DNA from: a virus
Reading direction: 5' to 3' (one strand)
Virus record (IMG/VR): IMGVR_UViG_3300032006_001365
Location: 1 to 23,552 of that record
Length of the DNA: 23,552 nt
Under the pieces are notes generated by a model. The model was not told where the DNA came from. It worked only from the letters and a program-made list of their open reading frames with translations, and searched no databases. Both the position numbers and the translations under genes were made by a program. Positions 5,098 through 19,771 of the stretch are shown in pieces. Each line of letters starts with the position of its first letter. Within the stretch, counting starts at the first letter, position 1.

Positions 5098-5342
5098 CGA
5101 ACCTCGAAGTTTAGTTTGCGTACTTTTCGTTTGCGTCGTTGCTCCTGCCATGCAAGATCTTGTGAAGTGAATCCGTCAGGTTTATGTTCTTCGTTAGAAC
5201 TTATCATGACTACCTTATTTAAGTCAAGTGCGGTCAATTTATCCCCATTTAAAGTGGCCATGTTAGGACAACCACATGATACAGTCTTTCCTGAGTTTGA
5301 ACTAAGTTCCTTACCACACTCTTTACATCTTACCTTGATCAT
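5094..5342 (-). CDS. Small zinc-ribbon-like protein, 82 aa
   Basis: An 82-residue protein with four cysteines arranged as C6-xx-C9 and C23-x-C25 (KCKECGKEL-type start and VSCGCPN), which can form a small zinc site. The middle part (LNGDKLTALDLNKVVMISS) is unassigned, and the tail is strongly basic (QEQRRKRKVRKLNFEVR), as expected of a nucleic-acid or nucleoprotein binder. It overlaps the end of the cytidylyltransferase gene by 20 bases. Such short zinc-ribbon proteins occur widely in cyanophages; a regulatory or DNA-binding role is inference. Confidence 0.75.
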   Translation of the reverse strand: MIKVRCKECGKELSSNSGKTVSCGCPNMATLNGDKLTALDLNKVVMISSNEEHKPDGFTSQDLAWQEQRRKRKVRKLNFEVR

Positions 5343-5835
5343 TTTCTTTAAGCGAATACTTTTCTAAAAGTTTGGGTGAATATTGTTCTACATTACTCTC
5401 TACCTTCTCATCTCTCTTTTTCTTTTCTAATGTATACACTCTGTTCCTTAATTCTGTGGAGGAATACTGGTGTCTTCGGAGATGAAAAAATAATTCTATA
5501 CCATTATCTATACAATATTGCTTTCCTGTGAAGTCTCTGTCTTTATATTCTTCACTCAAAAATCTTACATCAATGTTCTGGGTCTGAAGTAAATTAAGGA
5601 GATCAGCCTCTGTCTCATAGACTAGAATCTCATCAACATACTTACATCCTTGGAGTTGTACATACCTTTCATAGACTGATTGAACTGGTTTATTCTTCAC
5701 ACCAGGTCTATCAATAGTAGGATCCACCTGAAGTGCAACTATAAGATAGTCACACAACTGCTTCTCCATCTTCATCATTGTAACGTGTCCTGCATGAAAT
5801 AGATCACAAGAACTACAATTAAATCCTATCTTCAT
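5323..5835 (-). CDS. Cytidylyltransferase-like nucleotidyltransferase (HxGH family)
   Basis: A 170-residue protein of the HxGH nucleotidyltransferase superfamily, closest in layout to glycerol-3-phosphate cytidylyltransferase (TagD type), which transfers a nucleotide from CTP to a phosphorylated alcohol. It shows CDLFHAGHVTMMK with the HxGH motif at 14-17, YERYVQLQGCKYVDEI (55-70) of the family, and the second signature SSTELRNR at 125-132 (ISSTxLR type), which binds the triphosphate. About 35 residues of charged tail (TLEKKKRDEKVESN...) follow the domain. The substrate is unknown; glycerol-3-phosphate, ethanolamine phosphate or a sugar phosphate are possible. It starts 17 bases inside the 64-aa gene. 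A link to the sugar-nucleotide cluster downstream is inference. Confidence 0.82.
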   Translation of the reverse strand: MKIGFNCSSCDLFHAGHVTMMKMEKQLCDYLIVALQVDPTIDRPGVKNKPVQSVYERYVQLQGCKYVDEILVYETEADLLNLLQTQNIDVRFLSEEYKDRDFTGKQYCIDNGIELFFHLRRHQYSSTELRNRVYTLEKKKRDEKVESNVEQYSPKLLEKYSLKENDQGKM

Positions 5836-6456: not shown

Positions 6457-8832
6457 TTAGATCCCCCAAATATTTTTACAATATTCCCTAATAGAACGAT
6501 CTGATGAGAAGAAACCTGAACGGGCAGTATTAATTAAAGACATTCTATTCCATCTATCACGATCTGTCCATGCACTACTGACTCTATCTTGAGCATCACA
6601 GTAATCAGAGAAGTCAGCCATCACACAGAAAGGATCATGGTTAAGTAAGTTATCAAGTAAGGGTCTGAATAATTCTTTATCACCCTGACTAAAGTGACCT
6701 CCCTTAATAAGATTAATAGTTTCCCAAAGTTCAGGACTCATATGACTCTGAGGATTGTATCCATTCTGCCATAGATCTGCTATACCTTTCTCATCATGAC
6801 CAAAGAGGAAGAAGTTTTCTTCACCAACTAACTCACGTATCTCTACATTAGCACCATCTAATGTACCAATGGTAAGAGCACCATTCATTTGGAACTTCAT
6901 ATTACCAGTACCAGATGCTTCTTTACCAGCAGTGGAGATCTGCTCAGATAAATCAGCAGCAGGGTATACAAGTTCCCCTAACTTAACACTATAGTTTGGT
7001 AAGAATATTACACGCAACTTACCATCCATATCAGGATCATTATTAACCACCTCTGCAATATGACAGATGAATTGGATGATTAACTTTGCCATATAGTAAC
7101 CTGGTGCTGCTTTACCACCAAAGATTACTGTGCGAGGAACAAAATCTCTACCATTTTTAATGCGAAGGTATTGAGATACTACCCAAAGAGTCATCAAATG
7201 CTGTCTCTTATACTCATGAATCCTTTTAACTTGTATATCAAACATGCTTGAAGGATCCACAGATATTCCTAAATGATTAAAAATATATGTGGCAAGGTTA
7301 TGTTTACCTACTACCTTTGCTTCACCAAACTTCTCTAATAATTCTGGATTATCTTCTAACTTTTTTAAAGACTCCATATTAGTCATCCAATCTTCACCAA
7401 CATACTCATCTAATACTTCTGTCAGTGCAGGATTGCATGAGGCAACCCATCTTCTTGGAGTAACACCATTCGTGACATTAGTAAACTTATGAGGCCATAG
7501 ATCATAGAACTCTGGCATCAATTGAGTCTTAACTAATTCAGAGTGGAGTGCTGCAACACCATTAACATGATGAGATCCTACCGTGGCAAGATGTGCCATA
7601 CGTACTGATTTATTACCACGTTCATCAATAATAGACATCTTCTCTAACATGGATTCATCACCAGGATAATGAAGTCTTACTACCTGTAAGAATCTTCTAT
7701 TGATCTCATAGATGATCTCCATGTGTCTTGGAAGAAGAGTCTTAAACAATTTAAGATCCCATTTCTCTAAGGCCTCTGGAAGAAGAGTATGATTAGTATA
7801 TGCAACAGACTTAGTTACAATCTCCCATGCCTGTTCCCACTCCATATGCCTTTCATCAACAAGAAGTCTCATCAACTCTGCTACCGCAATAGCAGGGTGT
7901 GTATCATTTAACTGAACTTGCCAATACTCAGGGAATTGTTCTATAGGAATCTCTCTTCTATCAAGACTATTAAGCATATCCTGAAGAGATGCACTCACAA
8001 AGAAATGTTGTTGCTTTAATCGAAGTATCTTACCCTGATCTGTACCATCATTAGGATAAAGAACCTTAGAGATAGTTTCAGAAGACACACTCTGTTCTAC
8101 TGAACCAAGATAATCTCCTATATTAAATGCATAGAAATCAAATGTTTCAGTAGCATCTGCTCTCCATAACCTCAATCTATTACAAGAGTTTACTTTATAT
8201 CCTAACTGCAAAACATCATAAGGAACTGCTATAACCTGCTCATCAGGAACCCAACGTACCCTATAATTTCCTCTATCTGATACATAATTTTCTACTCTCC
8301 CACCAAATCCTACTAATACCGACTCATCTGGTTGACATAATTCCCAAGGCCATTCTCCATGTAACCAGTTATCAGTAACTTCTATCTGCTGATTATCCCT
8401 TATTTGCTGCTTGAAGATACCATACTTATATCTAATACCATAACCAGTAGCAGGGACTTCTAACGTTGCTAGAGAATCCATATAACATGCTGCTAGTCTC
8501 CCTAATCCACCATTACCCAAACCAGGTTCTTCTGCTACATCAAGAATCTCATCTATGGTATAGTCATATTCAGATAATGCCTGAATTGCTTCCTCTCTTA
8601 TACCTAAACTGATAAGATTATTATTTAATTGCGGTCCAATTAAAAACTCTGCTGATAGATATGCAACCTCTTTCTGTGGAGATTTTTGAGTATCCAACCA
8701 ATAGGTCATCATCTGATCTCTCACAGCATAGCATAATGCCATATAGAAATCATGTTTGGTAGCAATCTCAGGTCGTTTACCTAATGTATAGTAAAGACGT
8801 TCCTTAATACCATTATAAAGATTGTTTTTCAT
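6457..8832 (-). CDS. glgP: Glycogen (alpha-glucan) phosphorylase
   Basis: A 791-residue, full-length GT35 phosphorylase (E. coli GlgP and MalP have about 800-815). It cleaves alpha-1,4 glucan with phosphate to give glucose-1-phosphate. All main segments are intact: GLGNGGLGRLAACYMDSLA and TGYGIRYKYGIFKQ in the first third, FTNVTNGVTPRRWV in the middle, SSMFDIQVKRIHEYKRQH, IFGGKAAPGYYMAKLI, LPNYSVKLGELVYPAADLSE and EASGTGNMKFQMNGAL, whose Lys646 is the expected pyridoxal-phosphate lysine. The regulatory phospho-serine segment of animal enzymes is absent, as in bacteria. A strong Shine-Dalgarno sequence (GGAGGATA) precedes the ATG, which shares a base with the stop of the 38-aa gene (TAATG). 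Placed directly behind nrdAB. It is not among the cyanophage metabolic genes commonly reported (my recollection). Confidence 0.96.
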   Translation of the reverse strand: MKNNLYNGIKERLYYTLGKRPEIATKHDFYMALCYAVRDQMMTYWLDTQKSPQKEVAYLSAEFLIGPQLNNNLISLGIREEAIQALSEYDYTIDEILDVAEEPGLGNGGLGRLAACYMDSLATLEVPATGYGIRYKYGIFKQQIRDNQQIEVTDNWLHGEWPWELCQPDESVLVGFGGRVENYVSDRGNYRVRWVPDEQVIAVPYDVLQLGYKVNSCNRLRLWRADATETFDFYAFNIGDYLGSVEQSVSSETISKVLYPNDGTDQGKILRLKQQHFFVSASLQDMLNSLDRREIPIEQFPEYWQVQLNDTHPAIAVAELMRLLVDERHMEWEQAWEIVTKSVAYTNHTLLPEALEKWDLKLFKTLLPRHMEIIYEINRRFLQVVRLHYPGDESMLEKMSIIDERGNKSVRMAHLATVGSHHVNGVAALHSELVKTQLMPEFYDLWPHKFTNVTNGVTPRRWVASCNPALTEVLDEYVGEDWMTNMESLKKLEDNPELLEKFGEAKVVGKHNLATYIFNHLGISVDPSSMFDIQVKRIHEYKRQHLMTLWVVSQYLRIKNGRDFVPRTVIFGGKAAPGYYMAKLIIQFICHIAEVVNNDPDMDGKLRVIFLPNYSVKLGELVYPAADLSEQISTAGKEASGTGNMKFQMNGALTIGTLDGANVEIRELVGEENFFLFGHDEKGIADLWQNGYNPQSHMSPELWETINLIKGGHFSQGDKELFRPLLDNLLNHDPFCVMADFSDYCDAQDRVSSAWTDRDRWNRMSLINTARSGFFSSDRSIREYCKNIWGI

Positions 8833-15927: not shown

Positions 15928-16449
15928 CTAAACTTTACTCATAAAATTTTGAAAGGAAATTCCCTCTTTAAAAGCAGGTTTATTATGCTTCTTTTTACTA
16001 CCAATCTTCTTCTTTAAAGTGGCATAAGCATCACCAAAAAGATTGTTATCCTGCATAGTCGTGTCTTCTTTTTGATATTTTTTATATTTCTTATCAGTAC
16101 CAGGTTTGTAATGTGGTTTATCCCCTTTCTTTTTCATAGACCACATTAACTTAAACATATCAGCAGTCTTTTCCTTCTTGGTTTTACTACCAGGAAGTCC
16201 TTTGAATCTACCATCATCTAATGCTCTCTTAAAGGCAGCAGCAGTTCCCCCAATCTTTGACTTAGGTTTCCAAGGTTTTGTCTTTTCTTTCTCTGCCTTC
16301 GTATGACCCCAACCAGGAGGTGAGACTTCCTGAATATCCTGAGCGAAATCCTTTGCTGCTTTTTTACTAATACCCTTTTTCTTTCTCTCCTCTGGATTAG
16401 ACAAGAGATATCCAAAATATCTTTGTTGCTTCTTAGAGACGGCTGGCAT
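15928..16449 (-). CDS. Very basic DUF3008-like protein, 173 aa
   Basis: The start was set at the ATG at 16449 (MPAVSKKQQRYFGYLLSNPE), because a perfect AGGAGG lies 8 bases upstream; a longer frame starts at 16473. The first ~40 residues (KKQQRYFGYLLSNPEERKKK then GISKKAAKDFAQ) resemble the DUF3008 family, small basic bacterial and phage proteins of unknown function. The remainder is Lys-rich with PGWGHTKAEKEKTKPWKPK and a distinct end part (QDNNLFGDAYATLKKKIG). The strong positive charge and late block position suggest a head or DNA-associated protein. It overlaps the 96-aa gene by 17 bases. Confidence 0.78.
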   Translation of the reverse strand: MPAVSKKQQRYFGYLLSNPEERKKKGISKKAAKDFAQDIQEVSPPGWGHTKAEKEKTKPWKPKSKIGGTAAAFKRALDDGRFKGLPGSKTKKEKTADMFKLMWSMKKKGDKPHYKPGTDKKYKKYQKEDTTMQDNNLFGDAYATLKKKIGSKKKHNKPAFKEGISFQNFMSKV

Positions 16450-16723
16450 TTTCAGATCCTCCTTGGAAGTCATGAATACTTTCAGATCCCCCTACAGCAA
16501 AAGGATTATACTTTGCTGTAGCAATTTCATACATTTTTTCATGTATATTATCCTCAACTACCTCTTCAATTACTTCTTCTTTAGAGTATTGGGGATTGTA
16601 TGCATCATCTGCATCGGATGATCCATACATATCAAATCTATCATTAGTAGCTATGGGCATATCATCATGGGGATGAGGGATATCATCAAACCATTCATCA
16701 AGTGGGAGTCTATGTAAAAGCAT
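16433..16723 (-). CDS. Acidic protein of unknown function, 96 aa
   Basis: A 96-residue acidic protein, opposite in charge to its neighbours. It contains LPLDEWFDDIPHPHDDMPIA at the start, an acidic stretch SKEEVIEEVVEDNIHEKMYE, and a C-terminal AKYNPFAVGGSESIHDFQGG. No membrane segment, cysteine or known motif is present. It is coupled to the upstream basic 173-aa gene (TAATG) with a Shine-Dalgarno-like AAGGA, and overlaps the DUF3008-like gene. Pairing of an acidic protein with basic partners suggests a complex, which is inference. Confidence 0.72.
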   Translation of the reverse strand: MLLHRLPLDEWFDDIPHPHDDMPIATNDRFDMYGSSDADDAYNPQYSKEEVIEEVVEDNIHEKMYEIATAKYNPFAVGGSESIHDFQGGSENASRL

Positions 16724-17244
16724 TATCCTTTGGGATAGCGACCCTGTGATGGGTCTTTAGCACGTTCTGCAGCATTTTCTTGGTCAACTTTTGCTTGATG
16801 AGCACGGACCTTTGCTTTTTCTGCAGGACTTTGTGGTTTAATTTTATCACGTTTTGTCAAGACCCCATCACCATGTTGCTTTTTAAGTTTAGCAACAACG
16901 TAATCAAAGGCTTTGTCTTCCCTTACACCTCTCTTTGCTTGATGCTCTGCAGTTCTTGCTTTCATTGCATCTAAACCAGGAGCACCTTTCATACCTTTCT
17001 TATCCATCCACTTCTTAGTTCTCTTCTGGATCTTTTCCCCTTGTCCTGAATGCACATCACTTTCTCTAATATCATCAGGTACTAAGTCTTCACTACCAGA
17101 AACATACTTTGCATGTGCCTTTCTTGCTAATTTTCTCTTTGCTCTTGCACCAGCATCCATTGCCTTCTCAGCTTTCTTCTCTGGTTTCTTTTTACCGATA
17201 AAAGTGAAAGACCTTTCATTTAAAAATTGATTAAGATTTTTCAT
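16723..17244 (-). CDS. Basic head-type protein with T4-like capsid-targeting N-terminus, 173 aa
   Basis: A 173-residue, very basic protein. It begins MKNLNQFLNERSFTFIGKKK: residues 1-10 resemble the capsid-targeting sequence of T4 internal proteins (MKTYQEFIAE), and NFLNE|R-type Leu-x-Glu fits the T4 prohead protease cleavage rule (Leu/Ile-x-Glu). The body is rich in Lys, Ala and Arg (AGARAKRKLARKAHAKYVSG, KRTKKWMDKKGMKGAPG, AKVRAHQAKVDQENAAERAK), as in DNA-binding core or internal proteins. Its ATG shares a base with the stop of the 412-aa gene (TAATG). Encapsidation and cleavage are predictions from the N-terminus, not shown. Confidence 0.75.
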   Translation of the reverse strand: MKNLNQFLNERSFTFIGKKKPEKKAEKAMDAGARAKRKLARKAHAKYVSGSEDLVPDDIRESDVHSGQGEKIQKRTKKWMDKKGMKGAPGLDAMKARTAEHQAKRGVREDKAFDYVVAKLKKQHGDGVLTKRDKIKPQSPAEKAKVRAHQAKVDQENAAERAKDPSQGRYPKG

Positions 17245-18482
17245 TAATCTGCTATCAGAGTGTAAAAGAGTTCTTCAACATCTTCCTTCTTCATTGAAGC
17301 AAAGGTCTGAGCAAGATTTGCTTGCTTCTTAGTCCTTGTACTGTACTTATTAGGATTATCATCAACAGTTTTTGCAAATTGTTGAACACTCTGACCTGCT
17401 GCCTTGGCTTTTCTAGTAAATGCACCTGGTCTCTTCACTGCTTTCTGAATCCAATCCTTTTCTTCAACTGCTGCTACTTGTGAAGCAGGAGCTTTCTTTA
17501 CTCCAAACTTATTACCTTTGTAATTAGGAGTGTCAGTCTTGTCTGCATTTACTACTGGAGTATCCTTCATGGTATAATTTGCTTTTTCAAGTTCCTTAAC
17601 TTCTTTACCGACTATACCCTTAGCTTTTGTACCAAGTACCCCTTCTACTGCATAAGAATCCTTTATGTAAGCATGTGTTTCACTCTTCTTACCTTCTTTC
17701 TCCCTAGTAGATCCCTTAGCATGTTTCCAACGATGACCTGATTTCTGTGCATCTTCTGCTCCCTTGTCACGTTGCCACTTAGCATAGTCACGTTCTTTCT
17801 TAGCTTGCTTCTTCTTACCATGCATACTGTCATAAGTAGCATCTCTAGTACCTTTTCTTGCCTTATCAAAAGCAATAACTGCCTTTACCTGATCAGGAGT
17901 GTCTTTTTGCTTCTCTTGAAGATCTACTTCTCTCTCAGAAATTACTCGACCACCAATTGATGCAACTGCTTCAGTCATCTTAGGATTAATAACAACCTTA
18001 TTTTTAACCTTTTTCTCCTTAACTACTTTCGCTGCTTCCACATCAGTCATTGGAACATCATCAGCAATTTCAATGAGATCATGTCTCCAATTAGAGAAGG
18101 ATTCTTTTTTCACGTTCTTTTTTGCAATAAGTTTTTCTCTTTCTCTACCAAGTCTACTCATATTAAATCTTGCATGACCAGATGCCTCACCCTCGTCTCT
18201 GGCAAAATCCATTGCCTTGCGGGTTGTTTTCTTCATAAGTTTATTCTTTCTATCCAATCTATCATCAATACTTCTTTCTGCTTCATCGAGTTCTACTTCT
18301 TCCTTAGATAACGGAGCTCCCAAAGTTGCTAATTCCTTAGTTGATGTCTCCATCTGCTTGTCAAGAGCACTGTTACCCTGCTCCCATCTCTTTATATCCT
18401 TCTCTTCTTCTTTCTGATTAGCATTAGCAACATGATCCAAATATATTCTAGATATATCATTCAATGGATTTAAAGATGACAT
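17244..18482 (-). CDS. Lys-rich virion-type protein, 412 aa
   Basis: A 412-residue protein, highly charged and Lys-rich throughout, with few hydrophobic stretches. It starts MSSLNPLNDISRIYLDHVAN, a form I recall from other cyanophage virion-type proteins, followed by a helical acidic/basic region (ERSIDDRLDRKNKLMKKTTR), then DAEAA-type helices, a basic part (HGKKKQAKKERDYAKWQRDK), and WIQKAVKRPGAFTRKAKAAG near the end. No catalytic motif is seen. It is probably disordered or an elongated scaffold/core protein. A late promoter lies 31 bases before its ATG. It has candidate Leu/Ile-x-Glu sites, but these are too common to mean much. Confidence 0.75.
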   Translation of the reverse strand: MSSLNPLNDISRIYLDHVANANQKEEEKDIKRWEQGNSALDKQMETSTKELATLGAPLSKEEVELDEAERSIDDRLDRKNKLMKKTTRKAMDFARDEGEASGHARFNMSRLGREREKLIAKKNVKKESFSNWRHDLIEIADDVPMTDVEAAKVVKEKKVKNKVVINPKMTEAVASIGGRVISEREVDLQEKQKDTPDQVKAVIAFDKARKGTRDATYDSMHGKKKQAKKERDYAKWQRDKGAEDAQKSGHRWKHAKGSTREKEGKKSETHAYIKDSYAVEGVLGTKAKGIVGKEVKELEKANYTMKDTPVVNADKTDTPNYKGNKFGVKKAPASQVAAVEEKDWIQKAVKRPGAFTRKAKAAGQSVQQFAKTVDDNPNKYSTRTKKQANLAQTFASMKKEDVEELFYTLIAD

Positions 18483-18490
18483 GGTAAGCC

Positions 18491-19744
18491 CTAACTCTTC
18501 TTTTTCTTATATTTATTTATAAACTGTCTTCCGTAAGACTGACCAGGAACCATCGATTTAGCAAAATTAAGATACGCATTTGTACCTACTAAGCGTTGAT
18601 CTGAGTTATTTTGACCTGGTTTTACTGCTTCCATCACATCTTTTACCCATGATTTGAACATATAGTCCTCTTTTGTCACACATATAAGGTGATTTGTACC
18701 TCTCCGAATGATTTCACCTATTAATCCTGTGTTTAAATTCTCTACAATGTCACCAATCTTATAAATTAATCCCTTTACATAGTTCTCTCTGAGTCCTTTT
18801 TGATCATCTCTTGGTGCAATTTCCCATAACTCATAAGACTCTTTTACTTTTTTCTTCTTACCTTTCATTCCAGTACGAACAGCATCAAAAACTGCTTGTG
18901 CATCCGCATCTTTCAATCCTTTAGGGGTTCCACGTCTAAATGAGTCAAAATCATCGTCTTGAACTGCTTTTCTCATCTTAGATGCAGACATTCCTTCCAC
19001 TCCTTCTGCATCAGAGTCCCTTACACCAGCTGAAATAACCCTAATTTGGTCAAAATCATAGAGTTCACCGTTGTATTTGACCGCTAAATTCTCAAATTCT
19101 GCTTGTCTGTCTGCTCCAACAATAATATTCACACTATCAAACCCATCTGCATCCGCAGTTTTAAGTACATCAAAGATAGATTTCATCTCTGCATCATTAA
19201 CAATCTCTTCCTCATAATCAGGGAACATCTTCTTCATATAAGAGATCTTCATATCAGGATCAAGAGGATTTTTCTTTGGATCATGCGATCTAGAAGGATA
19301 AATCTTCAATGGACCACCTGCGGCTGCCTTTCTTGCTGCTCCTAATAACTTTTCATGACCTACAGTTGGTGGATTAAACCTACCAAATGCAGTTGTAAGA
19401 GTCTTACCTTCCTTTTTATCCCCTTCTTCCTCTGGTTTTTTCTGTAAAGGTGCTCCTGCAAGGTCATCATCCTTCCGACGTTTCAACATTTGTTGAACTG
19501 GACCTTTAGGTTGCTTCTTCCCATTCACAGGAAGATGGGATGGACGACCTGGAGTTTGATCTGGATCTCTACCTGGTCTCTGATTCTTATTGAAAAATCT
19601 TAACTTATCTCCTTCTGTTTTTGCTACAAATTCTCCACTACGATCCAACCAACCACCATGGCCATCGCTCTTGAGTCCTAATTTCCGTGCCTGTGTTCCT
19701 GCCTTAGACTCAGTTTCAGTTAAAAATTGGAAAAAACTCTTCAT
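18491..19744 (-). CDS. Nucleotidyltransferase with T4-like capsid-targeting N-terminus, 417 aa
   Basis: A three-part protein. Residues 1-10 (MKSFFQFLTE) resemble the T4 capsid-targeting sequence, with a Leu-x-Glu cleavage site after Glu10. Residues 22-55 hold a short module (GLKSDGHGGWLDRSGEFVAK then TEGDKLRFFNK). Residues ~115-270 form an HxGH-superfamily nucleotidyltransferase: AFGRFNPPTVGHEKLL (TVGH, 127-130), SVNIIVGADRQAEFE (205-217), and MSASKMRKAV (252-261) at the ISSTxLR position, with AlaSer in place of SerThr. A Pro/Lys-rich linker separates the module from the domain. The C-terminal ~110 residues, with LIYKIGDIVENLNTGLIGEI (329-348) and NAYLNFAKSMVPGQ, are unassigned. The substrate is unknown. 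Inferred: packaged in the head and injected. Confidence 0.8.
   Translation of the reverse strand: MKSFFQFLTETESKAGTQARKLGLKSDGHGGWLDRSGEFVAKTEGDKLRFFNKNQRPGRDPDQTPGRPSHLPVNGKKQPKGPVQQMLKRRKDDDLAGAPLQKKPEEEGDKKEGKTLTTAFGRFNPPTVGHEKLLGAARKAAAGGPLKIYPSRSHDPKKNPLDPDMKISYMKKMFPDYEEEIVNDAEMKSIFDVLKTADADGFDSVNIIVGADRQAEFENLAVKYNGELYDFDQIRVISAGVRDSDAEGVEGMSASKMRKAVQDDDFDSFRRGTPKGLKDADAQAVFDAVRTGMKGKKKKVKESYELWEIAPRDDQKGLRENYVKGLIYKIGDIVENLNTGLIGEIIRRGTNHLICVTKEDYMFKSWVKDVMEAVKPGQNNSDQRLVGTNAYLNFAKSMVPGQSYGRQFINKYKKKKS
18514..18521 (-). promoter_or_regulatory. T4-type late promoter (TATAAATA)
   Basis: An exact TATAAATA on the minus strand, inside the last codons of the 417-aa gene and 31 bases before the ATG of the 412-aa virion-type gene. 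It fits late expression of the head-type genes 18482-15695. Confidence 0.78.
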
Positions 19745-19763: not shown

Positions 19764-19771
19764 TATTTAGC
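19764..19771 (-). promoter_or_regulatory. Degenerate late-promoter-like element (GCTAAATA)
   Basis: GCTAAATA differs by one base from NATAAATA and lies 20 bases before the ATG at 19744, in the short gap between the 461-aa and 417-aa genes. The position is right for a late promoter of the nucleotidyltransferase gene; the mismatch keeps confidence low. Confidence 0.3.

Follow-up and report, generated by a model that had tools for sequence, protein, structure and literature searches.

A T4-like capsid targeting sequence as the probable address of a conserved cyanophage nucleotidyltransferase

Does the nucleotidyltransferase gene described here encode an enzyme that a phage loads into its head and delivers together with its DNA? 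The window, which is the whole 23,552-nucleotide stretch analysed from IMG/VR record IMGVR_UViG_3300032006_001365, is a genome fragment, and no head genes were found in its 23.5 kb. In T4, the internal proteins IPI-III and Alt are directed by a capsid targeting sequence (CTS), cleaved by gp21 and injected. The T4 sequence MKTYQEFIAE had been compared with the start of the window protein in a first-pass annotation of this DNA.

The gene and its N-terminus

The interval annotated as the nucleotidyltransferase is filled entirely by one minus-strand open reading frame of 417 aa (19744..18491). It matches PHROG 395 with E=5e-100 and is a direct, full-length orthologue of T4-GC190, which carries the GenBank-type name 'cyt(it)idyltransferase' and is named NMNAT in S-SCSM1. 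Full-length identity is 61-66% to the nearest records, 64% to the S-SM2 orthologue and 63% to the S-SCSM1 orthologue. In all, 533 phage records match the window enzyme, and cyanophages are the majority. The genes around it are replication genes, despite the late-promoter motif in front of it (Table 1).

Table 1. Positions of the nucleotidyltransferase gene, its parts and associated features. Positions refer to the window except where a locus is named.
Feature	Position	Strand	Basis
CTS-bearing nucleotidyltransferase (T4-GC190 / PHROG 395 orthologue), 417 aa	18491..19744	-	full-length orthologue identities
Late-promoter motif of T4 type, CTAAATA, 26 nt before ATG	19764..19770	-	motif counts upstream of orthologues
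Capsid-targeting-like N-terminus (MKSFFQFLTE, residues 1-10) with a predicted cleavage site behind E10	19715..19744	-	conservation, pattern match, AF2 helix 4-10
'GHG' module, residues 13-53, helix + small beta sheet	19586..19708	-	profile search, AF2
Variable low-confidence linker, residues 54-112	19409..19585	-	alignment entropy, pLDDT mostly <50
Nucleotidyltransferase domain, residues 113-297	18854..19408	-	AF2 pLDDT >90 over most, fold matches
TxGH motif, T127-V-G-H130 in FGRFNPPTVGH	19355..19366	-	sequence, family alignment
MSASKMR motif (ISSTxxR equivalent), residues 252-258	18971..18991	-	sequence, family alignment
C-terminal SH3/KOW-like barrel, residues 312-375	18620..18811	-	phrog_4808, AF2, profile and fold searches
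Basic low-complexity 412-aa protein directly downstream of the enzyme	17244..18482	-	conserved stretch shared with S-SCSM1 gp280
Very basic 173-aa protein, pI 10.1, CTS-like start MKNLNQFLNE	16723..17244	-	pattern match, composition
Relatives with CTS, directly behind it the nucleotidyltransferase, then P-loop kinase	L105 11230-12507; L139 8262-9539; L149 2505-3809	- (all)	domain matches

The N-terminus of the enzyme reads MKSFFQFLTETESKAG. Its first ten residues, MKSFFQFLTE, align with the T4 sequence without gaps, with F4 corresponding to Y4, L8 to I8, and F7 and E10 to their identical counterparts. The Leu-x-Glu site that the first-pass annotation placed at residue 10 is present as L8-T9-E10, in exact register with T4. 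Mutants of the T4 CTS indicate that targeting depends mainly on residues 4 and 7 and processing on residues 8 and 10, and gp21 cleavage follows the Glu in L/I-x-E (PMC9026906). The window protein has hydrophobic or aromatic residues at positions 4 and 7 and L/I-x-E at positions 8-10. Across 70 sequences, F7 and E10 never change, position 9 accepts six residues (S/T/N/G/K/A), and residue 11 is A in 58, T in 8, S in 3 and V in 1. F/L4 and L8 are near-invariant in the N-termini of the family, and residue 11 of the window enzyme is T rather than A. An invariant E10 next to a variable position 9 and a residue 11 that is mostly Ala is, at the level of sequence, as expected for a gp21 site. The string MKSFFQFL was among the seeds used to retrieve loci L004-L083, so residues 1-8 were partly selected in these loci; E10 and residue 11 lie outside that seed.

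We searched the starts of the 35 window genes with a pattern derived from the T4 sequence, and two matched, the enzyme and the 173-aa MKNLNQFLNE protein. Shuffling the first 60 residues of the same genes gave a mean of 0.006 matches. The likeness to the T4 CTS that had been noted at first pass is thus beyond chance, and the search it proposed for the same start elsewhere adds this one gene. The T4-derived pattern plus Ala was then used on the IMG/VR collection, with E10 and A11 being part of the pattern. Among the matches listed, 79 of 80 lie at the starts of open reading frames and 51 have a nucleotidyltransferase domain, although nothing of the enzyme had entered the pattern. Scrambled patterns of equal stringency, scanned against the entire IMG/VR, fell at open reading frame starts in 7/74 and 6/46 cases, and in neither scan with a nucleotidyltransferase domain. 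Chance resemblance of the N-termini was ruled out based on the shuffle test, the conservation pattern and the scrambled-pattern scans.

The start varies within the family. It is one residue shorter in S-SZBM1 (MRFRQFIIE↓A, where the arrow marks the predicted cut; MRFRQFIIEA), and a branch that includes S-RSM4 and S-PM2 has versions without a CTS. The enzyme thus has some role without a CTS or one that it reaches by a different route.

Proposed packaging, cleavage and injection

The motif [CA]TAAATA occurs upstream of 61/61 distinct orthologues, mostly 26-31 nt before the ATG, compared with 33% of the other open reading frames of the same loci and 9.7% of shuffles. One base separates the CTAAATA of the window from the cyanophage late promoter as published, NATAAATA (PMC2984593). 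L-x-E↓A also occurs in the major capsid protein of each of three related cyanophages, S-CREM2 (LLTE↓A), S-SCSM1 (FLAE↓A) and S-SZBM1 (ILTE↓A). A Peptidase_S77/gp21-type prohead protease, which probably cuts the major capsid protein at this site, is encoded by S-CREM2 and S-SCSM1, the two genomes checked.

Orthologues of the enzyme have been found in the virions of four cyanophages. In 2010, T4-GC190, a cyanophage core gene, was found in purified S-SM1 virions and classed among the virion proteins determined by experiment (PMC3037559). Later reports found the orthologue in S-SCSM1 (PMC9602691), in S-SZBM1 with 2 peptides (PMC9146016) and, as gp154, in S-CREM2 with 3 unique peptides (PMC10665884). 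Given these relatives in published virion proteomes, the phage very probably carries the window enzyme in its head.

In both the S-SCSM1 and the S-CREM2 study, the authors themselves left open whether the protein is cargo or an abundant contaminant of CsCl-purified virions (PMC9602691, PMC10665884). In the latter case it would be a soluble late metabolic enzyme that co-purifies with virions, and its N-terminus would be a family signature with another role. The low peptide numbers in S-CREM2 and S-SZBM1 and the existence of the CTS-less branch are compatible with such contamination. To compare CTS and virion content directly, every genomic start codon of S-CREM2 was scanned for the CTS pattern. 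All four genes with the MK-type form (gp6, gp13, gp14 and gp154) are in the virion list (4/4, p=0.003). Another two genes fit the pattern only when it is relaxed to M[KRN], and neither is in the list. In addition, the core recurs at residues 19-25 of gp12 (FASFMAE↓A), a protein that its authors describe as Cas9-like. The same ten-residue start is found on unrelated S-CREM2 proteins, E10 and residue 11 behave as a cleavage site does, and detection was repeated in four phages and different studies. Based on these results we consider co-purification quite improbable.

The association between CTS and virion is not uniform. When S-CREM2 (4/4), S-SCSM1 (1/2) and S-SZBM1 (0/2) are pooled, 5/8 MK-type genes are detected compared with ~17% of other genes (p=0.006). 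The undetected genes are gp030 of S-SCSM1, which has a CTS-like start, and two S-SZBM1 genes with perfect CTS-like starts that are absent from a virion proteome of 30 proteins; the latter two count against the rule that a CTS predicts presence in the virion. The CTS-bearing enzyme of S-CREM1 is absent from a virion proteome in which only 14 proteins were recovered. The CTS-less version of S-PM2 is absent from virions in an early, shallow proteome, which fits an address function of the CTS. The proteomes of S-PM2 and S-CREM1 are too shallow for these phages to serve as clean controls in either direction, and we did not retain them.

The proposal of the first-pass annotation that a T4-type CTS addresses the enzyme to the capsid is supported by the conservation, the scan with scrambled controls, the promoter motif, the L-x-E↓A of the major capsid proteins and the four proteomes. 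We favour an explanation in which the enzyme is loaded by its CTS, cleaved, resident in the head and injected, and as a whole we consider it fairly likely. Expression would begin late, at a T4-type promoter belonging to the gene itself. The first ten residues, which judging from their sequence quite probably are the address for packaging, would act as the CTS by which the enzyme is taken into the core of the assembling prohead. During head maturation a gp21-type protease would cut after E10 (FLTE↓T), a step that is likely by analogy with T4, and would leave a head-resident enzyme beside the DNA, made up of the GHG module, a flexible linker, the HIGH-superfamily domain and the SH3-like barrel. 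Upon infection the enzyme would enter the host with the DNA, for which the T4 analogy makes a somewhat better than even case, and would act at once, most likely as an ATP-dependent adenylyltransferase. Adenylyl transfer to NMN/NaMN would serve NAD+ upkeep.

The likeness to IPI-III and Alt of T4 comprises the ten-residue N-terminus with the same key residues, the L/I-x-E site, the late-promoter motif, the gp21-type protease in related cyanophages and the orthologues in virions. The cargo differs, being a HIGH-superfamily nucleotidyltransferase, whereas Alt is an ADP-ribosyltransferase and IPI an anti-restriction protein. The window enzyme also has an extra GHG module after the CTS, and its cleavage and injection are proposed by analogy.

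Fold, active site and candidate substrates

The nucleotidyltransferase domain that had been described behind the N-terminus was recovered at residues ~113-297 of the AF2 model, with pLDDT mostly >90. Its closest structural match is PPAT (Z 14.5 over 150 residues, 2.8 A, 13% identity), followed by NadD (13.4) and NadM (12.9), and the modelled fold is that of an adenylyl/cytidylyltransferase. Consistent with membership in the HIGH superfamily, the fold is of Rossmann type and TVGH and SASKMR are invariant or nearly so. The window enzyme scores 18.5 bits against Pfam PF01467 (CTP_transf_like), for which the gathering score is 21 bits; 46/65 aligned members match at E<=0.01, the best at 2.6e-11. 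A search of the window record for PF05636 (HIGH_NTase1) gave no match.

The active-site motif had been given as HxGH but is TxGH (NPPTVGH), with T in 139/144 distinct relatives and H in 5/144. The second motif, MSASKMRKA, is present as annotated, but it is not peculiar to this protein. The form GMSASKMR occurs in 110/144 distinct relatives; S-RSM4 has SGTKMR instead, and the jumbo phage PBECO4 has SSTQMR. MSASKMR is thus a variant of ISSTxxR that is common in the family. Since TxGH and SASKMR are the family norm, they provide no argument for an unusual substrate, and this earlier reading of the motifs was dropped.

An alignment of 65 diverse sequences shows no variation at the active-site residues R122, N124, P125, P126, G129, H130, D212, R213, S253, S255 and R258, a pattern that speaks for selection acting on catalysis. 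This bears on the alternative that the protein is packaged as a head-core or structural component whose enzyme activity plays no part in the host. Such a role has a precedent in T4 IPIII, which functions in head assembly (PMC9026906). It would also suit the adjoining basic low-complexity proteins, the S-SCSM1 relatives or positional counterparts of which are virion proteins, and a 144-aa protein (locus L116, 3797-4228, plus strand) that retains the CTS, the GHG module and the SH3-like barrel without the nucleotidyltransferase domain. The latter has either lost the domain by an in-frame deletion or is a carrier without cargo. Given the invariant active site, we regard a purely structural role as unlikely.

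The most likely reaction is the transfer of an adenylyl group from ATP to a small phosphate compound. Out of 65 members, 57 match the NCBIfam model TIGR00482, 44 match nadR and 16 match coaD, all below cut-offs. For the window enzyme the score against TIGR00482 is 12.1 bits, compared with an equivalog cut-off for NMN/NaMN adenylyltransferase of 112.45 bits, and no member reaches the cut-off of the curated NMNAT models (TIGR00482, TIGR01526). The family resembles NadR, NadM and NadD in its fold and in its T/HxGH and ISSTxxR-like motifs, and differs in that the window enzyme lies, by sequence score, far under every curated NMNAT cut-off. NadR combines a nucleotidyltransferase with a P-loop kinase, and a P-loop kinase of the AAA_33/zeta-toxin type has been added behind the nucleotidyltransferase in three CTS-bearing relatives (Table 1). 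Phages are known to rebuild NAD+ against NAD+-depleting defences (PMC12774641, PMC13232231). For this reason an NMN/NaMN (NAD-type) substrate is our leading guess from the sequence models, although a tentative one that we rate slightly under an even chance.

The names in GenBank imply a phosphopantetheine- or glycerol-3-phosphate-type nucleotidyltransferase that would act in CoA or surface-polymer chemistry. TxGH is the PPAT form of the active-site motif. CoaD (PPAT) shares it and heads the structure list with the top Z of 14.5; it differs in having fewer sequence-model matches and in the 13% identity. However, the Z gap to NadD and NadM is only about 1-1.6, coaD matches 16/65 members compared with 57/65 for TIGR00482, and the 25 NCBIfam families listed for the alignment include no model of a glycerol-3-phosphate cytidylyltransferase. 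This chemistry is therefore unlikely in our assessment. A firm name, whether NMNAT, PPAT or glycerol-3-phosphate cytidylyltransferase, was not adopted because these alternatives are not separated by searches against NCBIfam, PDB sequences and known folds.

A further possibility is that the enzyme is packaged and injected but acts on RNA/tRNA or protein, with the SH3/KOW-like barrel recruiting a nucleic-acid or ribosomal target. Among known structures, the barrel comes closest to KOW/Tudor-type domains (Z ~8), but a Z of 7-8 is unspecific for a small barrel. A profile search gave a weak, two-part match to MJ0951 (UPF0348), which at E=0.19 is not significant. DUF6267 is fused or adjacent to the nucleotidyltransferase in PHROG 455 and S-PM2, and in several phages the DUF6267 protein has a KWDGAP motif, which recalls covalent nucleotidyltransferases. 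NMNAT-type models match more members, and we consider an RNA or protein target doubtful.

Another nucleotidyltransferase gene lies at 5323-5835 of the window (minus strand); its product is of the RfaE-II/TagD type and has no CTS.

Targeting-like sequences on other proteins

In addition to the enzymes, a profile of the GHG module (residues 13-53) matches the kinase-like gp14 of S-CREM2 and a kinase-like S-H34 protein, with two copies in each, as well as two nuclease-like proteins, gp12 (S-CREM2) and gp182 (S-H34). No structural match was found for the module, as the two fold searches were filled by nucleotidyltransferase and SH3-like domains. We give about even odds to a broader reading, in which marine T4-like phages use the CTS, often combined with the GHG module, as a general label to address unrelated proteins. 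The candidate labelled set comprises the nucleotidyltransferase, a protein-kinase-like protein, a SAM lyase, a nuclease-like protein, DUF6267, P-loop kinases and small basic proteins. If the label is general, the cargo injected at the first moment of infection would be predictable from gene starts alone.

Earlier work had already described the gene, its conservation and the presence of its product in virions. The CTS as the reason for this presence seems new. In the literature searched, which covered few subscription journals, we found no report that ties T4-GC190 to a capsid targeting sequence, and neither the CTS explanation, its predictive value within a proteome nor the shared module. A review of T4 (PMC9026906) is the only paper in that literature that names both 'cyanophage' and 'capsid targeting sequence'. 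The word 'cyanophage' is absent from the main text of a survey of polyvalent proteins.

Virion proteome papers since 2010 have left cargo versus contamination undecided, and the CTS supplies a mechanism. If the explanation is correct, a cyanophage core gene encodes a pre-loaded enzyme that is present at time zero and is no ordinary auxiliary metabolic gene. The same pattern points to more cargo, for example the SAM lyase and the kinase-like protein of S-CREM2, and suggests that T4-style loading of effectors is widespread in marine phages.

Several further proteins with such ends were noted. In S-CREM2, gp6 (locus L092, 3837-5081, minus strand) is detected in virions and starts with the CTS MKDFDSFLEE, and its body matches Pfam S-AdoMet_lyase (E=2e-19); based on its sequence, it is a candidate packaged anti-restriction enzyme. 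A copy of the DUF6267 protein (locus L121, 6418-7623, minus strand) has a CTS of its own (MKSFQTFLNEAK). The 173-aa protein of the window, a companion of the enzyme, is similar in make-up to the basic internal proteins of T4, and its relatives are partial only, in four marine single-cell virus records. For the 412-aa protein, the gp280 of S-SCSM1 that shares its conserved stretch is annotated as a virion protein. A basic 181-aa protein (15928-16473, minus strand) has a CTS-like sequence at its C-terminal end, ISFQNFMSKV, and the S-SCSM1 virion protein gp279 ends similarly (TFKEFLEYIE).

Elsewhere in the window, a gene near nrdA/nrdB encodes a 791-aa glycogen phosphorylase-like protein (6457-8832, minus strand). 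Its sole match in a cultured cyanophage is in S-SCSM2R (72%), and its other matches are mostly bacterial or from gut phages.
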